A stretch of 41,218 bases of DNA from positions 1-41,218 of IMG/VR virus record IMGVR_UViG_3300020179_000065; one strand, 5' to 3'. The notes below the pieces were generated by a model that saw only the letters and a list, made by a program, of their open reading frames with translations, was not told the origin of the DNA and made no database searches. The stretch is from a virus. The position numbers and the translations under genes were made by a program. The stretch's first letter is position 1, and each line of letters begins with the position of its first letter. Positions 23,881-39,183 of the stretch are shown piece by piece.

Positions 23881-24641
23881 GGTTCCTTCTTACCGCCGCC
23901 CAAAACCACCTTTGCCCCCACCTTGATTACACGCTCGGGAACTGCCCAAGGGTCAGGTTGTTCCGACTGCGAAGGCGCTTGACCTCCACCAATCATAATC
24001 CCACCACTCGGAATCTTCGTATTCTGTGACGGCGGCAAAAACGGAGCAGGACGTGAATTCGCAACAGGAGTAATAGGCATAACAGGAGCAACAAGCGCGT
24101 CAGGCGCACGCGAAAGTTTCTCGGCTATGTCCTGAATGTGCTTACACGCTTTCTTGAAAGCGAACGCCTTACAAGAACACGTCCATTGATCATCCGACGT
24201 CCGCGTGACCTCATAGACGCTATCTTTGTCGCCCTTCACCGTCCAACGCTCAGGCTCAGGCTCAGGCGGTTTGACGATTTCGGGCGGCTTGACGAAACCC
24301 GATGGGGGAAGCCCGACAAGTTCACGCGCCGCGTTCGTGACCTCATTAGGTGACGCCACAGACCAATCACCCTTGCGCTCACTAATCTCCAACGCCAACG
24401 CCCGCTGAATCAGGTCCTTAAAATCAGGCAAACCCTCGCCCAAGCCCCCCGGCGCAAAGTTCGGATTGCGTAGCAGCGTTTCTTCCTGCGTCAACATTCG
24501 GGACATCCAAAGCGATTGCCCCGTGCGTGAATTCTTGCAGCCCGAGTTCTGGCACGCGGCGCAAAACGTCTGCTTGAATTGTTCGGGCGAACTTTTCTGG
24601 TGCTCGCCCGAATAGCATTGGTTGAAAAGATCAGGCAACAT
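23877..24641 (-). CDS. SWIM zinc-finger protein with N-terminal cysteine cluster
   Basis: 254 residues, ATG 11 nt inside the end of the thymidine kinase gene. A SWIM motif is visible at residues 153-168: WTCSCKAFAFKKACKHI, with Cys155, Cys157, Cys166 and His168 (CxCx8CxH). SWIM fingers bind zinc and mediate DNA or protein contacts. A second cluster near residues 27-35 (FCAACQNSGCKNS) is also metal-binding in appearance. A proline-rich linker separates the two, and the C-terminal 80 residues are a proline/glycine-rich flexible tail. The function in the phage is unknown; DNA-related work is likely. Confidence 0.75.
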   Translation of the reverse strand: MLPDLFNQCYSGEHQKSSPEQFKQTFCAACQNSGCKNSRTGQSLWMSRMLTQEETLLRNPNFAPGGLGEGLPDFKDLIQRALALEISERKGDWSVASPNEVTNAARELVGLPPSGFVKPPEIVKPPEPEPERWTVKGDKDSVYEVTRTSDDQWTCSCKAFAFKKACKHIQDIAEKLSRAPDALVAPVMPITPVANSRPAPFLPPSQNTKIPSGGIMIGGGQAPSQSEQPDPWAVPERVIKVGAKVVLGGGKKEP

Positions 24642-25158
24642 ACTTTGACCAGCAGGTTCGACAACGGGCCTCGTAAACGCCGTGTGAACCGACTTCGATC
24701 AAATCTGAACTGCGCGAGAGTTTATACGTCCGATTTGCTTTCACGCCACACTTGCACTTGGCGTTAATCTTCGTGACGCGATCTGCCACGGCCAACAACG
24801 CGGGCATCGGCCCAAACGGTTGCCCCTTGTAGTCCAAGTCCAGCCCCGAACAAATCACGCGCACGCCTTGATCGGCCAAGACATTGACGACAAGTACGAG
24901 TGAATCCGGAAAAAACTGACACTCATCAATGCCCACGACTTTTGCGCCTTTAGACTTCTCCAAGATCACGTCGAGTCCAGCAGTAGACGTAGGGACATTG
25001 ATTGCCGGAAACGTAGCGCCGTCGTGAGTCGCCAAATGCGTTTCGTGGTATCTGGTGTCAATGCTCGGCTTAAAAGCAATCGCCTCGACGCCAATCAAGC
25101 GGCGCACGAGTTCGGTCGTCTTACCCGCGTACATACACCCTGCAATCACTTCGATCAT
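24631..25158 (-). CDS. tdk: Thymidine kinase (type II)
   Basis: 175 residues, the usual size for a TK1-like enzyme. The P-loop GCMYAGKT is at 7-14, the catalytic Glu79 lies in GIDECQFF, and a lasso-type region with TYKLSRSSDL follows. Four cysteines in two pairs (KCKC near 135-137 and CRTC near 166-169) form the structural zinc site. The enzyme phosphorylates thymidine to dTMP with ATP, feeding phage DNA synthesis from salvaged nucleoside. It sits in the accessory operon, 4 nt after the upstream gene and overlapping the SWIM protein. Confidence 0.95.
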   Translation of the reverse strand: MIEVIAGCMYAGKTTELVRRLIGVEAIAFKPSIDTRYHETHLATHDGATFPAINVPTSTAGLDVILEKSKGAKVVGIDECQFFPDSLVLVVNVLADQGVRVICSGLDLDYKGQPFGPMPALLAVADRVTKINAKCKCGVKANRTYKLSRSSDLIEVGSHGVYEARCRTCWSKYVA

Positions 25159-25812: not shown

Positions 25813-26142
25813 CTAACGAATAACTGAGACTTGTTTGAAAAACCTTGAAGCCGAACCGAATGTCTTGTCTGAACCGCTGGTGACATAATTCGTGATTTCA
25901 CCGTTGTTGTTAAAAATCCTAGCACCGTCAGTTCTGTTCCAAGTGCCGCCAGCACAATTGGGGAAACGATTGACCGTGTTCGCTTCGCCGTCGTGTACAA
26001 GATTCGCGGGCCAACGACCAATAGGCTGTTTGAAGGTGGTGCCAGCGTCACGCTTGTATCTCCAATTTTCAGAGCCGTCGTGACGTTCAGAACCGTTTTC
26101 TGCGTAGGCTCCACCGTTTAGATTGTCAGACGTGACGATCAT
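25813..26142 (-). CDS. DNA methyltransferase middle-domain module 1 (stand-alone, shortened)
   Basis: 109 residues. The ATG at 26142 overlaps the stop of the motif IV subunit (ATGA). Residues after the start match the centre of the sister module at 27466-28074: NWRYKRDAG, PIGRWPANLV and a terminal GSASRFFKQVSV. In one-piece phage DNA methylases this block lies between motif IV and the C-terminal motif I part, where the target-recognition domain sits. Compared with its two sisters it lacks the front block with TVAQNAL and GALNIDGCR; its ATG falls where the sister has CGG. Over 135 nt it differs from that sister at three bases only, a recent copy or gene conversion. Confidence 0.7.
   Translation of the reverse strand: MIVTSDNLNGGAYAENGSERHDGSENWRYKRDAGTTFKQPIGRWPANLVHDGEANTVNRFPNCAGGTWNRTDGARIFNNNGEITNYVTSGSDKTFGSASRFFKQVSVIR
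26006..26140 (-). repeat. Near-identical 135-bp segment shared by modules 1 and 2 (copy 1)
   Basis: This segment matches 27845-27979 with three mismatches, while the rest of the two genes has diverged or differs. It ends at the base following the ATG of module 1. This marks recent duplication or gene conversion. Confidence 0.9.
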
Positions 26143-26702
26143 ATTGGCTTTCTTGCGACGATGATTGGTTCCCAAGCGGGCTTTAATGCGGTGCCGTAAC
26201 CGGACCATTGCCGAGCGGCATCGGTCGCGGGTGCGGTGATGTTGATGGGTTGATGCTCTTGCCCCTGATCCATTGCGCGATCAAATGCTTTGCCACCTTT
26301 GACCTGCGATTTAGGTCGGTCGTTTGCTGACACGCCCACCACCTCTCGCTCCGCTCCCGCCGCCTTGTCAATCGCCTTACTGACGTCCATGGACTTCGGG
26401 AAGCCTGATCCGTAAGTCCAAGCATGGACTTCAAAACCCACGAATCCCGATTTTTTCAGGGCTTGGGTCATCCGATGAAAAGTTCTCGTGCCTGAGAAGG
26501 CTTTGATAACGCCGTTAGGCTTTAGAATCCTAAAGCATTCGCCCCAAAGTTCGGGTGAATAAGCGATTCCGGTCGAGTCCCACCCTTTACCCATGAAGCC
26601 CAATTCATACGGGGGGTCTGAAACTACGGCGTCTACTGAGTTTGGCGATAGGTCTTTGAGTTTGACTAGGCTATCGCCGAGAATCAGTCTAACGGTGTTC
26701 AT
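26139..26702 (-). CDS. Split DNA methyltransferase, subunit with motif IV (DPPY)
   Basis: 187 residues. Catalytic motif IV is at 29-32 in SVDAVVSDPPYELGFMGKGW, followed by a 'FRILKPNGVIKAFSG' segment and a helix (FHRMTQALKKSGF). It ends with ALKPAWEPIIVARKPI, just where one-piece phage methylases continue into the conserved 'GALNIDGCR' block. The SAM-binding motif I and the HPTVKP segment are missing and are found in the preceding gene. So this protein alone is unlikely to methylate DNA. Joined to both neighbours by 4-nt overlaps. Confidence 0.85.
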   Translation of the reverse strand: MNTVRLILGDSLVKLKDLSPNSVDAVVSDPPYELGFMGKGWDSTGIAYSPELWGECFRILKPNGVIKAFSGTRTFHRMTQALKKSGFVGFEVHAWTYGSGFPKSMDVSKAIDKAAGAEREVVGVSANDRPKSQVKGGKAFDRAMDQGQEHQPINITAPATDAARQWSGYGTALKPAWEPIIVARKPI

Positions 26703-27469
26703 TCGTCCAGCCCGAAGAAATCGTCAAAGTCAACGTCACGCTGTTTCGGCGTCGTGTCGCAATCGGACGTGATTATCGCGCGACCTTCTAAAATGCTGCG
26801 CTCGCTATTCCAATGCCGAACTCGGGCGTCCGCAATCGGCAGATAGTCCGGCGTAATCTCGATGCCCGTGAAGTTCATGTGCGCGTTCAAGCAGGCAATA
26901 CCCGTAGTGCCCGAACCCAAAAATGGGTCTACGACGTGCGAGCCTTTGGCGATGTCTTCAAGGCACCACTCCATGATTTCAACAGGCTTTACTGTTGGAT
27001 GAAAGTTAGATCGTGCTGAATTAGAACGATTGCGAGGGTTATTAGGACCCGGAGCGTCGGCATCACGATCTTCTTCCCAACGCCGTTCTTCTAAATCATG
27101 CGTACCCGCTTCGCGTTCCGAAGTCGCGGCTTTCGCCGTGTACGAAAAATTACTCTCAGACGTCGCCACGAAAATCGCGTCGCGGACCTCAAAGCCCGAG
27201 TCCTCGGCTACGCAGACACAATCTGACCCCGTAGCGTCAACGTCATCAGCAGACGCGATGAGCAAATGACCGCCCGGCTTCAATACGCGCAAGGCTTCGA
27301 CTTGCCAAACGTCACCCACGCCCCGCGTGACCAACAGCCCATGCGCCGTCGAATCCTCGTGGGCTTGCCAATCAAAAGCAATCGGGTCATCTACTCGCAG
27401 AACCTTCAAGTCCGGCACAGGAGTAGAAATCAGTTTTGTAAGGTAGTCCCAAAGATTGATTGTGGTCAT
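26699..27469 (-). CDS. Split DNA methyltransferase, subunit with motif I (FxGxG type)
   Basis: 256 residues. The C-terminal half carries FHPTVKPVEIMEWCL at about 156-170 and VVDPFLGSGTTGIA at about 179-192, the SAM-binding motif I of beta-class enzymes, then FTGIEITPDYL. Just ahead, SNFSYTAKAATSERE matches the region that follows the recognition domain in one-piece phage methylases. The N-terminal half keeps an ALRVLKPGGHLLIAS segment but has no DPPY; the equivalent region reads VDDPIAFDW. The missing motif IV is in the next gene, overlapping by 4 nt. The two proteins plausibly form one active site. The methylated base and site cannot be read from sequence. Confidence 0.85.
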   Translation of the reverse strand: MTTINLWDYLTKLISTPVPDLKVLRVDDPIAFDWQAHEDSTAHGLLVTRGVGDVWQVEALRVLKPGGHLLIASADDVDATGSDCVCVAEDSGFEVRDAIFVATSESNFSYTAKAATSEREAGTHDLEERRWEEDRDADAPGPNNPRNRSNSARSNFHPTVKPVEIMEWCLEDIAKGSHVVDPFLGSGTTGIACLNAHMNFTGIEITPDYLPIADARVRHWNSERSILEGRAIITSDCDTTPKQRDVDFDDFFGLDE

Positions 27470-27492
27470 TTGATTGTCACCTGTTGAAAGAA
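27466..27492 (-). repeat. 27-bp direct repeat at the end of module 2
   Basis: The same 27 bases occur at 28071-28097. They encode the common C-terminus FFQQVTIK, the stop codon and the overlapping start codon of the next gene. Such a shared end could serve homologous recombination between modules. Confidence 0.9.
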
Positions 27493-28074
27493 TCTTGAAG
27501 CGCCGCCTTGGTCACCAAGGCCACCGGAGTTTGCGCCATTACGATCTAGTGCGTATTTACCGTATGTGAGTCTGCCTAACGCGCCTCTAGACTTCTCACC
27601 TGCGCCGCCCGAGGATTTGGTTAAACCGCTTTGTTGGTCTAGTGCGTGTATTGGGCAATCTTCGTGGCAGAGCCAATTCGTGATCGTTTCTTTTTTTAGG
27701 CTGACTTCTTCTAGGTCATTTTGTCCGGCGTGACCCGAAGTAGAGATGCCGCCTTTTGATCTTGTTCGTGGCGAGTGGCCGTTTGATTTGACGGTCTTGG
27801 TGCCTGCGTTAAAGCATTCGGGCAAGTGGTTTAGAACGAGATTAGCGGGCCAGCGACCAATAGGCTGTTTGAAGGTGATGCCCGCGTCACGCTTGTATCT
27901 CCAATTTTCAGAGCCGTCGTGACGTTCAGAACCGTTTTCTGCGTAGGCTCCACCGTTTAGATTGTCAGACGTGACGATCCGGCATCCGTCGATGTTCAAC
28001 GCCCCGCAACCGTGTTGCAGGGCGTTTTGAGCGACGGTGCCGATCAGGGGCTTTCTCAGGACGTGAACGATCAT
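27466..28074 (-). CDS. DNA methyltransferase middle-domain module 2 (stand-alone)
   Basis: 202 residues. It opens with MIVHVLRKPL, the counterpart of the last residues of the motif IV subunit, then TVAQNALQHGCGALNIDGCR, NWRYKRDAG, PIGRWPANLVLNHLPECF and a terminal GGASRFFQQVTIK. This is the middle section of phage DNA methylases, the position of the target-recognition domain, as a separate protein. It has no SAM-binding or catalytic motif. The variable part between PANLV and ASRFF differs fully from the other two modules. Stop and start overlaps of 4 nt on both sides. Confidence 0.75.
   Translation of the reverse strand: MIVHVLRKPLIGTVAQNALQHGCGALNIDGCRIVTSDNLNGGAYAENGSERHDGSENWRYKRDAGITFKQPIGRWPANLVLNHLPECFNAGTKTVKSNGHSPRTRSKGGISTSGHAGQNDLEEVSLKKETITNWLCHEDCPIHALDQQSGLTKSSGGAGEKSRGALGRLTYGKYALDRNGANSGGLGDQGGASRFFQQVTIK
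27845..27979 (-). repeat. Near-identical 135-bp segment shared by modules 1 and 2 (copy 2)
   Basis: Partner of 26006-26140, lying inside module 2. The match stops at the codon for the Arg of GCR, exactly where module 1 has its start codon. Confidence 0.9.
28049..28074 (-). repeat. 26-bp direct repeat at the start of module 2
   Basis: Identical to 28477-28502. It encodes the common N-terminus MIVHVLRK plus part of the next codon. Together with the 27-bp end repeat it frames modules 2 and 3. Confidence 0.9.
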
Positions 28075-28097
28075 TTGATTGTCACCTGTTGAAAGAA
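28071..28097 (-). repeat. 27-bp direct repeat at the end of module 3
   Basis: Second copy of the 27 bases at 27466-27492, again spanning the C-terminal codons of a module and the ATG of the following gene. Confidence 0.9.
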
Positions 28098-28502
28098 ACG
28101 AGCAGCCGAACCGTCGTCGTCGTAGCCCGTTGATTCATTACTCCCACCAAGTTTTAGATTGGCCACACCGCCTTTGTTTGCCGCCCGTCCACCTTGCGAT
28201 TTGCCTGTCTCTGGAAAAAGCTCCAGCACGTCGTCGCTGCCGTCGTGGACGAGATTAGCGGGCCATCGACCCGCTTGATGTTGTTGTGTGTCGAAGGCAT
28301 TACGTTCCCGATTGTTTTGTACGCCGCCTGCGAGTGATCCGCTCTTTGCTGTCAGACTCCCACCGGGGAATGCACTCGTTTTGTCTGCTTCCGAGACGAA
28401 GCCGACTCTGCATCCGTCGATGTTCAACGCTCCGGCTCCATGAGCCAAGGCGTTTTGAGCGACCGTGTCTGACAACGGCTTTCTCAGGACGTGAACGATC
28501 AT
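28071..28502 (-). CDS. DNA methyltransferase middle-domain module 3 (stand-alone)
   Basis: 143 residues from the ATG at 28502, one base after the previous stop; the longer frame to 28574 lies inside the preceding gene and is rejected. It shares MIVHVLRKPL, TVAQNALAHGAGALNIDGCR, GRWPANLVHDGSDDVLELFP and the end ARFFQQVTIK with module 2, while the part between GCR and GRWPANL is different. No catalytic or SAM motif. First gene of the five-gene methyltransferase cassette. Its likely role, by family position, is DNA target recognition with the two split catalytic subunits. Confidence 0.75.
   Translation of the reverse strand: MIVHVLRKPLSDTVAQNALAHGAGALNIDGCRVGFVSEADKTSAFPGGSLTAKSGSLAGGVQNNRERNAFDTQQHQAGRWPANLVHDGSDDVLELFPETGKSQGGRAANKGGVANLKLGGSNESTGYDDDGSAARFFQQVTIK
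28477..28502 (-). repeat. 26-bp direct repeat at the start of module 3
   Basis: Second copy of the segment at 28049-28074, covering the start codon and first codons of module 3. Confidence 0.9.
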
Positions 28503-31798: not shown

Positions 31799-31841
31799 TT
31801 ACACCATCCAAACGGTTTGGGACCGCTTGGAAAACCGAAAA
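31799..31841 (-). promoter_or_regulatory. 43-nt promoter-like element, copy 1
   Basis: TTTTCGGTTTTC, 13 bases, then ACCGTTTGGATGGTGTAA on the minus strand, 24 bases before the ATG of the acidic protein gene. It has six copies in the window with the same spacing. See the finding on this element. Confidence 0.8.
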
Positions 31842-31844
31842 TCG

Positions 31845-31982: not shown

Positions 31983-32013
31983 CGAATCCTCCCTAGAAAG
32001 TGGTTTCTTGCGC

Positions 32014-32056
32014 TTACACCATCCAAACGGTTGATTCGGACTAGGAAAACCGAAAA
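32014..32056 (-). promoter_or_regulatory. 43-nt promoter-like element, copy 2
   Basis: Same two blocks with 13-base spacing, minus strand, facing away from copy 3 across an 11-base centre. It lies 31 bases before the small basic gene. Confidence 0.8.
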
Positions 32057-32067
32057 AACGACGTCGA

Positions 32068-32110
32068 TTTTCGGTTTTTCGTGGGTGGCCTAACCGTTTG
32101 GATGGTGTAA
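32068..32110 (+). promoter_or_regulatory. 43-nt promoter-like element, copy 3
   Basis: Plus-strand copy, back to back with copy 2. The ATG of the plus-strand gene lies 32 bases downstream. One base of the first block differs from the consensus (TTTTCGGTTTTT). Confidence 0.8.
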
Positions 32111-32142
32111 GCGACACTATCAAAGCCCGACAGGAGTGAGTA

Positions 32143-34101: not shown

Positions 34102-34869
34102 TCAGGCCGGAACGCCAGGCTCTCGCCACTTGCCCGAAGTGATCTCACCCTCGGAGCCGTCCCATTCGCCGCCGAGGATAATCGCCGTACCGCCGATTCT
34201 GGCCCTGCCAAAGCATCTGGCTTCGCCTCTAACCAAGGCACTCTCGTACACCTTGGCGTTGCCGTACACCTCGGCGTCGTCCCACACCAAGGCGTTGCCG
34301 AACACTTGGGCATTGCCGTACACCTTGGCGTTGCCGTCCACATGGGCTATGCCATACACATAAGCTCTGTCATACACCTCGGCTTTGCCTCTCACCTCGG
34401 CGTTGCCGTACACCACGGCATTGCCGTACACCTGGGCGTCGCCGCCCACAATGGCGTTGTCGGACACATTGGCGTCGCCGTACACCTTGGCGTTGCCGTA
34501 CACCTTGGCGTCGTCCCACACCCAGGCTTCGTCGTACACCTTGGCGTTGCCTTTCACATCGGCTTTGCCGTACACCTGGGCGTCGTCGGACACCACGGCA
34601 TTGCCGTACACCTGGGCGTCGTCGGACACCACGGCATTGCCGTACACCTTGGCGTCGCCCTTCACCAAGGCGTCGCCGAACACCTTGGCGTTTCCGGTCA
34701 CAATGGCATTATCAAAGATGTGCTTCCCAGGGATGTTTACATCAACAGAAGCCGACCTGCTCAGACCCTGAAGTCCAACAAGAATAGCCTTTCTCTCGGA
34801 CGAACCGACGGGCAGGCTAGAAGCCAACTTGATCAGAGCAGAACGGTCGCTTGAACTCAACTTACGCAT
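34102..34869 (-). CDS. Hexapeptide beta-helix protein, short form
   Basis: 255 residues. Residues 1-50 share with the next gene a helix-rich adaptor (LIKLASSLPVGSSERKAIL) and then NIPGKHIF. Residues 50-225 are regular six-residue repeats of the kind VYGNAKVYGDAxV, which predict a left-handed parallel beta helix. The last 30 residues (ARIGGTAIILGGEWDGSEG) form the cap seen in all three family members. In phages such proteins are likely fibres or spikes, but I cannot assign a role. The opposite strand is also open in places because the repeats are codon-regular; those frames are not genes. Confidence 0.8.
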   Translation of the reverse strand: MRKLSSSDRSALIKLASSLPVGSSERKAILVGLQGLSRSASVDVNIPGKHIFDNAIVTGNAKVFGDALVKGDAKVYGNAVVSDDAQVYGNAVVSDDAQVYGKADVKGNAKVYDEAWVWDDAKVYGNAKVYGDANVSDNAIVGGDAQVYGNAVVYGNAEVRGKAEVYDRAYVYGIAHVDGNAKVYGNAQVFGNALVWDDAEVYGNAKVYESALVRGEARCFGRARIGGTAIILGGEWDGSEGEITSGKWREPGVPA

Positions 34870-34906
34870 GGGGGGTCAAACCTTCTTGTGTTCTAGGCTA
34901 GGGGAC

Positions 34907-36217
34907 TCAGGCGGGAACGTCAGGGGCTTCCCACTTACCTGAAGTGATTTCGCCTTCGGAGCCGTCCCATTCGCCGCCGAGGATAATCGCCGTACCGCCG
35001 ATGCGGGCGTCTCCGTATATCTCGGCGCGACCGTACACCTTGGCGTTGCCGTATATCTCGGCGTCGTCGTACACCATGGCAAGGCCATACACCTCGGCCC
35101 TGTCGTACACCCTGCCGCTAATCACCTTGGCGCCGCCGTACACCTGGGCGTCGTCGGACACCACGGCTTTGCCGTACACCTCGGCGCCGCCGTACACCTG
35201 GGCGTCTCCGTAAACTTCGGCGTTGTCGTACACATGGGCGTTGTCGTACACAATGGCTTTGCCGTACACCTTGGCTTCGTCCCTCACCTGGGCGCCGCCG
35301 GACACCTTGGCGTTGTCGTACACCTTGGCCTTGCCCTTCACCTTGGCGTCGTCGGACACCTTGGCGTTGCCGGACACCTCGGCGTCTTCGTACACCCGAG
35401 CGTCGCTAAACACCGAGGCTTTGCCGTACACCTCGGCGCTGCCGTACACCTTGGCTTTGCCGTACACCTGGGCGTTGTCGTACACATGGGCGTTGTCGTA
35501 CACAATGGCTTCGTCCCTCACCTGGGCGCCGCCGGACACCTTGGCGTTGTCGTACACCTTGGCCTTGCCCTTCACCTTGGCGTTGCCGGACACCTTGGCG
35601 TTGCCGGACACCTCGGCGTCTTCGGACACCTTGGCGGCGTTGAAGATATGCTTTCCAGGAATGTTGTAATTTCCCGAAGCCTTCTTGCTTGAACTCTGAA
35701 GTCTAACAAGAATCGCCTTTCTCTCGGTAGAACCGACGGGAAGGCTAGAGGCCAAGCGAATCAACGCAGAACGGTCAGAGGCGGTAAGTTTACGCGAGGC
35801 CATTTTCTTAGCTCCATCTTCAAGATTCGTGAAACCTGAAAAGTCAACCATGTAAGTAGTTCCGTTGGGAAGCACGATCACGTCGCCCACGGACATACTC
35901 GTATGTCCGGTTTTTGAAATCGCGGGCATGGTGTTAGCCTCGCCGTAAGGCGACCAAACTTCACCCTGCATCATATTGAAGATTTCGCTCAGGTTCGTCT
36001 CGTCGACGAGCCCGATGCGTGTATGCGTATTTTCCAAATCAGCGAGAACGGCAGATAAGTCCAAGCCGCGCGTGCCACGGCTGAACTTGGAAAACAGACC
36101 ACGATTGTAGTAGAGGATTTGGGTGCGGCCTCGACCGTAACGATCATCACCCGTGACACCACCTGCGCCTCTCAGGGTGTTGTAACCATTAAAGCCGCCG
36201 TCCGAAAAATAGTTCAT
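34907..36217 (-). CDS. Hexapeptide beta-helix protein, long form
   Basis: 436 residues from the ATG at 36217, with GGGA ahead; an earlier frame to 36472 overlaps the plus-strand gene and is rejected. The N-terminal 140 residues are a separate part (SDGGFNGYNTLRGAGG, LSEIFNMMQGEVWSPYGEAN and HTSMSVGDVIVLPNGTTYMV), the last resembling a small beta domain common in phage hypotheticals. Then comes the adaptor (LIRLASSLPVGSTERKAIL, NIPGKHIF), some 240 residues of hexapeptide repeats, and the GGEWDGSEGEITSGKW cap. Two internal stretches are near duplicates. It and the short form overlap in design, so the pair probably arose by duplication. Confidence 0.8.
   Translation of the reverse strand: MNYFSDGGFNGYNTLRGAGGVTGDDRYGRGRTQILYYNRGLFSKFSRGTRGLDLSAVLADLENTHTRIGLVDETNLSEIFNMMQGEVWSPYGEANTMPAISKTGHTSMSVGDVIVLPNGTTYMVDFSGFTNLEDGAKKMASRKLTASDRSALIRLASSLPVGSTERKAILVRLQSSSKKASGNYNIPGKHIFNAAKVSEDAEVSGNAKVSGNAKVKGKAKVYDNAKVSGGAQVRDEAIVYDNAHVYDNAQVYGKAKVYGSAEVYGKASVFSDARVYEDAEVSGNAKVSDDAKVKGKAKVYDNAKVSGGAQVRDEAKVYGKAIVYDNAHVYDNAEVYGDAQVYGGAEVYGKAVVSDDAQVYGGAKVISGRVYDRAEVYGLAMVYDDAEIYGNAKVYGRAEIYGDARIGGTAIILGGEWDGSEGEITSGKWEAPDVPA
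35220..35390 (-). repeat. Internal duplication in the long beta-helix gene, copy 1
   Basis: 171 bases that recur at 35472-35624 with an 18-base deletion and few changes. The copies are offset by 252 bases, a multiple of the 18-base hexapeptide unit, so the reading frame and repeat phase are kept. Confidence 0.85.
35472..35624 (-). repeat. Internal duplication in the long beta-helix gene, copy 2
   Basis: 153 bases matching 35220-35390 apart from one missing 18-base hexapeptide unit. Confidence 0.85.
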
Positions 36218-36257
36218 GGGTAATCCCACTTCGTTGAAGGGTCCCCCAAGCCCTAAT

Positions 36258-36272
36258 GATAGCGATACTATC
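36258..36272. repeat. Short inverted repeat between divergent genes
   Basis: GATAG and CTATC across a 5-base centre, in the 69-base gap between the long beta-helix gene and the plus-strand structural gene. It may be an operator. No clear promoter was found in the gap. Confidence 0.35.
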
Positions 36273-36286
36273 GAAAGGTACAGGTT

Positions 36287-37573
36287 ATGACCGACAAGCC
36301 GATCCCTTACACGCTCGCGCAAAACCCTGCACCGAATCCGGCTAATCAAGGCCAAGCCTATCAGCAGGACAAATCGGCGTTGGTTCAACGCATCATGGCC
36401 GCTTTCAGGTCCGTGCTGCCTTCTAACTACGTCGCGGCAACCAACGGCCCTTGGTACTCGTTGCAGTTTCAAGCCATGGCCGAGCAGTTGGCCGAGATTC
36501 AGATTAACGCCAGCGAACTCGCCACGGATTGCGATTGGGATTTCACGCGCTCTGATTTTTTGTGGGACTTGCTCGGCGGCGTCGTGTTCCCGAACTCGTC
36601 CTCGGGCATCCCTTACATAAACGGCGATGTTGACTATCGGACGTTCCTGCGTCGAATGGTCGAGTTACTATTGCAAGGCGCGACCAAAGCCTCGATTCAA
36701 GGCGGCATCGAAGCCTTAAACCCGAACGTCACCGCCTATGTGCTCGAAAGATACCTGCAAACGCCGCCTCGTGACCCGAACGGCGCGTACACGATTGCAG
36801 ATCAGTTTGCGTTAGACATTCTAATCGACGCCGGAAACTCGTTCCCCGACAATCCGGCGATCTTACAAGCCAACATCGAACTCGTACTGCGTGCGCTAAA
36901 GCCCGCCCATGTGCTTTGTTCGTATTCGACGCTCTTTCGAGATACTTTCCCGACGCCCGAAGATAACGGCGATGCGTTTTCGTGGGACGTTGAGCCGTAT
37001 TACTACGACGACACTCGCAAGTATTGTCTCGGTGCTAAAGAAATCAGCGGCATCAGCGGCGCGTTCTTAGCGCGTAGGGATTACTTCTCGGACCCGAGCG
37101 TGTCCTTCTCGTCCATTCCGTCCGGCGCGTTGCTTATGATCGGCACGGACCAATACCGTGTTCGCAGTACGCGGGCATTGCTTACAGGTGCCGATGCGGT
37201 CGCAAGGGCGTACACGACATCGCCCTCTGGACTTTCGGGCATGGTCGTCGCTCTCAATGCGACTGATTTATACGATGCCGCTCAAGATTGGGGCGCAAGC
37301 GCAGTCGAAGGCGAAGTGATTACGATTTTGACGGGGCCGAACTCGGGCGCGTCGTATCGACTTGAGACGGTGCTCGGTTCCGACGGTGGGCCTTTGGGCG
37401 AGGCCGGATTGTCCGGCAATCGCGTTCGATTGGCACCAACGATCCTCGTGCTGAATCGTCGAGCGTCGGCTGCTGCGTCTGGTTTGACGTACACGGTCAC
37501 GGTGGACCGTTTAGGTCAACAGCCCGTGCGTGAAGTCTTGGCCGAAGACGTCGCTATTCAGTTTTGGTTATAG
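36287..37573 (+). CDS. Putative baseplate-associated virion protein
   Basis: 428 residues, ATG with GAAAGG upstream. The first 190 residues are largely helical (YSLQFQAMAEQLAEIQINAS, CDWDFTRSDFLWDLLGG, RTFLRRMVELLLQGATKASI), and the rest is beta-rich (ALLMIGTDQYRVRSTRALL, GEVITILTGPNSGASYRLET). This arrangement, with a 'DWDFTRSDFLW' segment, is seen in large structural proteins near the baseplate of big phages, as far as I recall. No precise family is recognised. The plus-strand position, apart from the main tail operon, suggests separate regulation. Confidence 0.6.
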   Translation: MTDKPIPYTLAQNPAPNPANQGQAYQQDKSALVQRIMAAFRSVLPSNYVAATNGPWYSLQFQAMAEQLAEIQINASELATDCDWDFTRSDFLWDLLGGVVFPNSSSGIPYINGDVDYRTFLRRMVELLLQGATKASIQGGIEALNPNVTAYVLERYLQTPPRDPNGAYTIADQFALDILIDAGNSFPDNPAILQANIELVLRALKPAHVLCSYSTLFRDTFPTPEDNGDAFSWDVEPYYYDDTRKYCLGAKEISGISGAFLARRDYFSDPSVSFSSIPSGALLMIGTDQYRVRSTRALLTGADAVARAYTTSPSGLSGMVVALNATDLYDAAQDWGASAVEGEVITILTGPNSGASYRLETVLGSDGGPLGEAGLSGNRVRLAPTILVLNRRASAAASGLTYTVTVDRLGQQPVREVLAEDVAIQFWL

Positions 37574-38996: not shown

Positions 38997-39039
38997 TTAC
39001 ACCATCCAAACGGTCGGCAACCGCTTGGAAAACCGAAAA
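38997..39039 (-). promoter_or_regulatory. 43-nt promoter-like element, copy 4
   Basis: Minus-strand copy directly before the 141-residue gene: the block ends ten bases from the ATG and its last AA forms part of AAGGAG. If it is a promoter, transcription must begin inside the second block, or else this gene is read from copy 5. Confidence 0.8.
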
Positions 39040-39062
39040 TCGGCGGGAGCACCATGCCCCGC

Positions 39063-39105
39063 TTACACCATCCAAACGGTTCAAGTCGGGCTAGAAAACC
39101 GAAAA
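39063..39105 (-). promoter_or_regulatory. 43-nt promoter-like element, copy 5
   Basis: Minus-strand copy, 66 bases upstream of copy 4 in the same direction, so the two stand in tandem. Back to back with copy 6 across an 11-base centre. Confidence 0.8.
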
Positions 39106-39116
39106 TCGACGTCACT

Positions 39117-39159
39117 TTTTCGGTTTTCTAGGGCCTGCCCGACCGTTTGGATGGTGTAA
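39117..39159 (+). promoter_or_regulatory. 43-nt promoter-like element, copy 6
   Basis: Plus-strand copy, 24 bases before the ATG at 39184, opposite to copy 5. The 11 bases between copies 5 and 6 and between copies 2 and 3 both contain CGACGTC. Confidence 0.8.
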
Positions 39160-39183
39160 GCACAACCTCAAGGAGCGATGAAC

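Follow-up and report, generated by a model that had tools for sequence, protein, structure and literature searches.

The window analysed here, the whole 41,218-nucleotide stretch of the IMG/VR virus record IMGVR_UViG_3300020179_000065, carries on its minus strand five coupled open reading frames (ORFs), which are transcribed in the order module 3, module 2, motif I subunit, motif IV subunit, module 1. This order, the coordinates and the 4-nt ATGA overlaps, present at 4 of the 4 ORF junctions, bear out the initial annotation. The features are as follows:

28071..28502, minus strand: recognition module 3, 143 aa (phrog_3008 match, 2e-11)
27466..28074, minus strand: recognition module 2, 202 aa (phrog_3008 match, 9e-13)
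27836..27979, minus strand: VR1 cassette of module 2, counterpart of the copy in module 1 (84% identity to that of the sister phage)
26699..27469, minus strand: SAM-binding (motif I) subunit, 256 aa, with motif X (HPTVKP) and motif I (DPFLGSGTTG)
26139..26702, minus strand: catalytic (motif IV) subunit with DPPY, beta-class N-terminal half, 187 aa (phrog_6025, 1.9e-32)
25813..26142, minus strand: recognition module 1, 109 aa, without the constant N-terminus
25997..26140, minus strand: VR1 cassette copy inside module 1, 144 nt (96.5% identity to 27836-27979)

In the scanned neighbours of the array, the recognisable genes are those for a thymidine kinase, a cold-shock domain protein, structural proteins and lysis. 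Neither a nuclease nor a partner restriction endonuclease was recognised among these scanned neighbours; several neighbours are without a family name.

The motif order of beta-class N6_N4_Mtase enzymes (IV, recognition domain, X, I), with a (D/N/S)PP(Y/F/W) sequence and a motif I of the FxGxG type, is found in the set of chains, not in a single chain. Within the five ORFs of the window, HPTVKP and DPFLGSGTTG are confined to the motif I subunit and DPPY to the motif IV subunit, and the Pfam profile N6_N4_Mtase (PF01555) is divided between the two, the motif IV subunit matching profile positions 1-90 and the motif I subunit positions 149-219; the placement of the two motifs on separate subunits, as originally proposed, is thereby confirmed. 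The same partition is seen across 29 non-redundant contigs: the DPPY pattern occurs in 47 of 49 DPPY-subunit ORFs (and in all 28 of the aligned DPPY subunits), motif I occurs in none of these ORFs, and DPPY occurs in none of the split motif I ORFs. Since DPPY and motif I are never found on the same split ORF, neither subunit could act alone. Inteins interrupt both kinds of subunit, between HP and TVKP in motif I subunits and between YG and SGFP in motif IV subunits. The earlier statement that each ORF lacks what the others have holds for this strict motif partition, but not for the motif I subunit as a whole: its residues ~1-110 repeat the motif IV half in degenerate form, without DPPY (seen in alignments and by hhalign, E 4e-5), and this degenerate half is kept across the family. 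Judged from its sequence, the window array is a split form of the beta-class (N6A/N4C) phage DNA methyltransferase, and a widespread one.

AlphaFold is acquainted with one-piece beta-class folds, and its predictions were made here for two different homologues: a chain in which the motif IV and motif I subunits of L008 are joined by an out-of-frame linker (242 of 705 residues), and the window motif I subunit (P0003) alone. The L008 chain was predicted with a pTM of 0.55 and aligned by Foldseek to M.BceJIV with a TM-score of 0.64-0.66 over 667-670 columns that run from the motif IV subunit through to the C-terminus of motif I, at an rmsd of 17 Å, which means that part of this alignment is not superposed. 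The window motif I subunit alone reached a TM-score of 0.27 to M.BceJIV. The DPPY and motif I chain is thus predicted to form one composite, complete class I methyltransferase fold, while the motif I subunit alone is not.

Split and coupling recur in 28 contigs besides the window, so the split in the window is not due to chance. Of 81 junctions, 66 have 4-nt NTGA overlaps. The closest relative, a sister phage that is syntenic with the window at ~83% nucleotide identity and is included among the 29 contigs, has kept the split but carries 7 modules and 2 DPPY subunits as compared to 3 and 1 in the window. Relatives with a different number of modules, which the initial annotation had suggested looking for, therefore exist: per array there is essentially one motif I subunit, with 1-7 modules and 1-6 DPPY subunits, the latter being multiplied in relatives as well as the modules. 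Natural fusions of a module to motif I are found in L016, L119, L198, L199, L283 and L298, and L280 has one triple fusion, motif IV-module-motif I. The order in the fusions is that of the one-piece enzymes, e.g. Mycobacterium phage Dumbo gp99, the motif IV, middle domain, motif I order stated at the outset. Among 50,697 records there is no isolate phage in which a split motif I subunit is matched at a single locus over 80% of its length. Two candidate isolate carriers, Vibrio phage CKB-S1 and Microcystis phage Mel-JY01, were rejected, as both have the one-piece form.

The modules are ~105-230 aa in size and resemble the recognition position of beta-class enzymes. The proposed search of each ORF against phage methylases was productive for modules 2 and 3, which match the N-terminal part of the phrog_3008 DNA methyltransferase, and for the motif IV subunit (phrog_6025), but module 1 on its own gave no match in the family scans. 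Module 3 is built of a constant N-terminus (MIVHVLRKPL..ALNIDGCR), a first variable region VR1 (GFVSEADK..), GRWPANL, a second variable region VR2 and a SAARFF end; module 2 has a VR1 of the type TSDNLNGGAYAEN.., then a long middle, VR2 and an ASRFF end. Modules 2 and 3 start with their own copy of a strand (IVHVLRKPL...) that also ends the motif IV subunit (IIVARKPI), indicating that the joint was duplicated rather than cut, while module 1 starts ~31 residues later, directly at the variable cassette. The breakpoints are consequently not identical in all modules, contrary to what had been reported initially. The VR1 of module 1 is a recent copy of that of module 2 (144 nt, 96.5% identity), and its VR2 is common to the last module of the sister phage; module 3 and the sister phage share a VR1 but differ in VR2. 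Module 1 is a truncated recombinant: a recent recombination has left it without the 31 N-terminal residues that the other modules have, and it may be inactive.

More generally, the modules are mosaics in which two hypervariable cassettes, VR1 and VR2, are set in constant frames and reshuffled between phages. We distinguish 31 VR1 types and 34 VR2 types among the modules; VR1 type 0 has 8 different VR2 partners, and a single VR2 type has 3 VR1 partners. One-piece enzymes have VR1 and VR2 cassettes in common with the modules, at the same position. L022 and L024 are ~98% identical over ~8.6 kb except for ~300 nt of VR1 and adjoining sequence, a difference that reads as one swapped cassette.

Several other explanations of the array have to be weighed. 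Gene decay, in which stop codons and duplication would have broken up what was once a one-piece methyltransferase and left pieces that are open by accident, could draw on the abundance of one-piece homologues, the truncation of module 1, a frameshifted motif IV copy in L032 and apparently broken one-piece genes in L220 and L240. However, the identical split is found in 29 contigs, the overlaps of 4 nt come with the ORFs' own start codons, and the joints have duplicated strands in place of clean cuts. Moreover, comparison with the sister phage gives dN/dS values of 0.055 for the motif I subunit, 0.088 for module 2, 0.15 for the motif IV subunit and 0.29 for module 3, indicative of strong purifying selection on all four, and in the trees of both halves the split subunits make up one side of a branch with 100/99 support, apart from the one-piece enzymes. 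Decay is exceedingly improbable, and on the relatives, dN/dS and trees we reject it. The initial annotation would have abandoned its reading had close relatives carried a one-piece enzyme and the ORFs been lost or frameshifted elsewhere; the closest relative instead retains the split under purifying selection, which supports a modular enzyme with separate recognition subunits. Sequencing error is likewise rejected, as the split is found again in independent contigs, where start and stop codons overlap.

Two further explanations were considered. The motif I subunit could be a whole enzyme, or a pseudo-enzyme scaffold similar to MTA9 or METTL14, with the DPPY subunit and the modules serving separate enzymes or regulation. 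Its second, degenerate N-terminal half, present family-wide, would fit such a role and is reminiscent of complexes such as MTA1-MTA9, in which an active subunit is paired with an inactive one (PMC9852454). Nevertheless, DPPY and motif I never occur together on a split ORF, and the predicted motif I subunit alone does not have a complete methyltransferase fold (TM 0.27, as compared to 0.65 for both together); we consider this explanation quite improbable, and self-sufficiency of the motif I subunit is not favoured. Alternatively, the array might encode a heteromer with a single working specificity, the other modules being silent stores of cassettes that recombine into the active one, much as in phase-variable hsdS with its silent loci. 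Inter-module recombination is shown by the recent copying of VR1 between modules 2 and 1 and by the cassette replacement between L022 and L024, and module 1 lacks the constant N-terminus; yet modules 2 and 3 are both complete, each with a start of its own that is ATGA-coupled in the same operon, and purifying selection acts on them, for which silent stores would have no need. This makes the silent-store explanation unlikely.

We favour, with a probability of about 0.8, a heteromeric beta-class DNA methyltransferase with a split catalytic pair, exchangeable recognition modules and several specificities per operon. Given the motif partition and the structure prediction, the C-terminal half of the motif I subunit would join the DPPY subunit in one fold and one active site. 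A recognition module takes the place of the target-recognition domain between the halves of one-piece phage enzymes, as homology, natural fusions and common cassettes show. The modules, and in relatives the multiple DPPY subunits, would compete for the single shared SAM-binding subunit, which could yield several methylation specificities from one operon. Comparison of the phages shows exchange of the two variable cassettes of each module and gain and loss of modules, through which specificity would change. The likely use would be to shield phage DNA from restriction by many host enzymes, by analogy with the multi-specific C5-methyltransferases of Bacillus phages. DNA methylation activity, recognised motifs and the simultaneous use of several modules are what we infer. 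A more far-reaching version, for which we see about even odds, is that the one SAM-binding subunit can combine with any DPPY subunit and any module, the specificities being the product of the parts; the array would evolve by cassette swapping under phage-host restriction pressure, and the degenerate half would provide a platform on which the exchanged catalytic subunit docks, or would hold its place.

Sequence-specific DNA methyltransferases normally have one polypeptide and one recognition domain; multi-specific methyltransferases have everything on one chain, and in Type I enzymes the catalytic domain is whole. In the open-access literature we found split C5 enzymes, C5 enzymes with multiple TRDs and MTA1c, and no earlier description of a split beta-class array, although one may have been missed. 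A split active site with a stock of interchangeable recognition parts would make it cheap for phages to change or stack methylation specificities, and one virus may disguise its DNA at many sequences. Split arrays would also explain a puzzling class of methylase fragments in viral metagenomes and could offer ready-made split parts for programmable methylation.

The array resembles the one-piece phage beta-class enzymes (phrog_67 / phrog_3008; Mycobacterium phage Dumbo gp99) in its parts, in their order (from motif IV half through recognition domain to motif I half) and in the cassette positions, but differs in having three kinds of separate genes, whose copy numbers are unequal, in the additional half without DPPY carried by the motif I subunit, and in forming a separate lineage in both half trees. 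It also resembles Type I HsdM2-HsdS with phase-variable hsdS, in that the specificity subunit is encoded apart and its two variable regions, set in constant frames, are shuffled by recombination. HsdM is a single polypeptide with motif I and NPPY, whereas in the phage array the catalytic fold itself is split. Scans of the modules against Pfam, NCBIfam, PHROGs and PADLOC detected no HsdS (Methylase_S) homology, so the modules at most work like HsdS; as they have two variable, recombined regions between conserved ones, the HsdS comparison drawn earlier is apt as an analogy of organisation.

The gene organisation fits several recognition domains on one catalytic core, a situation for which the known multi-specific cases are C5 enzymes, while the window array is of the beta class. 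C5-methyltransferases of SPbeta-group Bacillus phages carry several target-recognition domains on one enzyme and counter several restriction systems (PMC12707154); these are single polypeptides, whereas the phage array is an amino-methyltransferase with its domains as separate proteins. M.AquI and M.EcoHK31I are naturally split C5 enzymes, whose two polypeptides carry complementary motifs and must come together for activity, but they are fixed two-part enzymes for which exchangeable recognition subunits or arrays are not described (PMC3404938). Finally, the ciliate 6mA complex MTA1-MTA9-p1-p2 and METTL3-METTL14 combine a catalytic DPPW subunit with a degenerate partner and separate DNA-binding subunits (PMC9852454); there the DPPW subunit binds SAM, whereas in the phage array SAM binding and DPPY are on different chains and the recognition parts are seemingly interchangeable.

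The initial annotation described five coupled minus-strand ORFs with ATGA overlaps, all of which we found in the order it gave.

Features of the methyltransferase array of the window and its flanks, genes in order of transcription
28502-25813, minus strand: array of five head-to-tail genes, ATGA overlap at every junction
First, minus strand: module 3, 143 aa
Second, minus strand: module 2, 202 aa
Third, minus strand: motif I subunit, 256 aa, with HPTVKP and DPFLGSGTTG
Fourth, minus strand: motif IV subunit, 187 aa, with DPPY
Fifth, minus strand: module 1, 109 aa
29067-29507: cold-shock-domain protein, flanking the array region
24631-25158: thymidine kinase, flanking the array region

The Pfam N6_N4_Mtase model is shared out between two chains, the motif IV subunit matching profile positions 1-90 and the motif I subunit 149-219, and a family scan placed modules 2 and 3 on the N-terminal part of the phrog_3008 DNA methyltransferase. 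One-piece phage enzymes, for example Mycobacterium phage Dumbo gp99, have these parts in a single ORF, with the motif IV half first, then the middle domain and the motif I half last. The neighbours of the array that were scanned included no recognisable restriction endonuclease.

Each ORF had been said to lack what the others have. This holds for DPPY, which the motif I subunit lacks, but that subunit is more than the missing half. Residues ~1-110 form an additional, degenerate motif IV half (LKPGxH..., GFEVRDAIFV) without DPPY, and this pseudo-half, related to the motif IV half by profile comparison (hhalign E 4e-5), is kept throughout the aligned family of motif I subunits. Nor are the breakpoints the same in all modules, as had been proposed. 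The joint is duplicated, with the motif IV subunit ending in ...EPIIVARKPI and modules 2 and 3 opening with their own MIVHVLRKPL, and module 1 starts ~31 residues later than the other modules, right at the variable cassette. Its cassette is 96.5% identical to that of module 2 over 144 nt, the latter being only 84% identical to the cassette of the sister phage (IMGVR_UViG_3300037042_003620, the closest relative), and therefore reflects recent copying inside the array of the window; module 1 may be inactive.

Searching viral and prokaryote genome contigs yielded 29 non-redundant contigs with the system (27 viral, among them the window, itself an IMG/VR virus record, and two MAG contigs), many of the arrays lying on contigs of 100-375 kb; here, L-numbers denote contigs with related loci. 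Relatives with other module numbers, which the initial annotation had suggested looking for, do exist: synteny between the window and the sister phage extends from 19.5 to 32 kb (~83% nucleotide identity), but the array of the sister phage holds seven modules and two motif IV subunits, and its motif I subunit is interrupted by an intein, whereas the window has three modules, a single motif IV subunit and no intein. Modules and motif IV subunits number three and four in L004, four and two in L008, six and six in L121, and six and five in L198, respectively, and the motif I subunit is single-copy in nearly all arrays (two copies in L199). The partition of motifs is conserved. DPPY is present in 28/28 aligned motif IV subunits and, across all 29 contigs, its pattern occurs in 47 of the 49 motif IV ORFs (one exception, from L032, is the C-terminal fragment of a copy with a frameshift), none of which has motif I, and DPPY is absent from every split motif I ORF. 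Some motif IV subunits, in L004, L008, L010, L016 and L032, have SGMP(A/T)GN in place of SGFPKS; this second subtype stands alongside the common type in L004, L008 and L016, and perhaps has a different target base or partner. The motif IV subunit at L121:8910-9638 carries a cysteine-rich (CxxC) insertion after DPPY, with similar ones in some neighbours.

Elsewhere in the window, a ~105-nt imperfect palindrome (32008-32113 and 39060-39165, copies ~80% identical), also found in the sister phage and near the end of L178, is a possible regulatory or replication element; a second shared repeat of 46 nt lies at 31799-31844 and 38997-39042. Two adjoining genes at 34102-36472, ~73% identical in DNA, have beta-solenoid/hexapeptide-like repeat arrays, match YdcK/bactofilin and phrog_7964/5070, and are likely duplicated fibre or structural proteins.

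As judged against the sister phage, four of the genes are under purifying selection: dN/dS is 0.055 for the motif I subunit (extein parts only), 0.088 for module 2, 0.15 for the motif IV subunit and 0.29 for module 3. Coupling is widespread, with an NTGA four-base overlap at 66 of 81 junctions in 22 loci. Could the split be a series of recent gene break-ups? In the trees of both the N-half (arbitrarily rooted) and the C-half (87 columns), with one-piece sequences drawn from the same searches, one branch parts split from one-piece sequences (100/99 support), which therefore rules this out.

Natural fusions argue that the three parts work jointly: the motif I subunit carries a fused module at its N-terminus in L016, L119, L198, L199, L283 and L298, and L280 has a triple fusion, a 577-aa motif IV-module-motif I ORF that retains the pseudo-half. 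Intein-like insertions, beginning with Cys and ending in HN or GN, occupy two conserved sites, each in two different phages:

L003:4923-6833, motif I subunit, HP/TVKP
L032:4995-6908, motif I subunit, HP/TVKP
L020:2495-4261, motif IV subunit, YG/SGFP
L280:4169-6088, motif IV subunit, YG/SGFP

Inteins favour conserved, needed sites.

A composite methyltransferase fold is predicted for the two catalytic subunits. We folded with AlphaFold2 a chain (A5, from L008) of motif IV subunit, artificial 242-residue linker (out-of-frame residues, stops read as Gly) and motif I subunit. Both cores reached pLDDT ~90, and the pTM of 0.55 over 705 residues would, by its definition, exceed expectation for just one placed core. 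Foldseek aligned the chain from the motif IV subunit through the motif I C-terminus with the one-piece M.BceJIV over 667-670 columns (TM 0.64-0.66 of target), albeit at an rmsd of 17 Å, part of the alignment failing to superpose; matches of ~190-210 columns gave TM 0.28-0.47. The top viral matches likewise cover the full span, at some 690-970 columns. The motif I subunit of the window alone folded less surely (mean pLDDT 70.7, pTM 0.50) and scored only 0.27 against M.BceJIV, the joint chain being from another homologue. In these two predictions from different homologues, the pseudo-half is no substitute for the motif IV subunit.

Comparison of some 55 modules revealed mosaics: constant sequence at the start (MIITLLRKPLEGSVAENTLKHGCGAINIDATR), GRWPAN at the hinge and GGASRFF at the end enclose two hypervariable cassettes, VR1 and VR2, although some modules have a single cassette only. 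The cassettes, clustering into 31 VR1 and 34 VR2 types, are exchanged: one VR1 type occurs beside eight different VR2 types and, conversely, one VR2 type beside three VR1 types, and L022 and L024 are ~98% identical over ~8.6 kb apart from a ~300-nt stretch in which VR1 and part of the middle have been replaced. One-piece enzymes have related cassettes at the equivalent place. Between the sister phages L026 (4163-4558) and L028 (3878-4558), with flanks ~90% identical, the module is 132 versus 227 aa, the shorter having lost VR1 and much of the middle.

In the best-supported reading, two chains would build one active site, the motif IV subunit together with the motif I subunit's C-terminal half, one module at a time would provide target recognition, and several modules would give one operon several specificities. 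We infer that the system methylates DNA and that modules compete. Bacillus phages have multi-specific C5 enzymes, and by analogy the role may be restriction evasion (PMC12707154).

In the open-access literature we found no description of a beta-class enzyme that is split and has arrays of recognition and catalytic subunits, and no isolate phage record matches a split motif I subunit with a coverage of 80%. The proposed likeness to HsdS stands for organisation, two variable cassettes in a constant frame, but not for sequence, no homology to HsdS appearing in any library scanned. Split C5 enzymes (PMC3404938), multi-domain C5 enzymes (PMC12707154), Type I M2S enzymes and MTA1c (PMC9852454) each have one aspect in common with the system.
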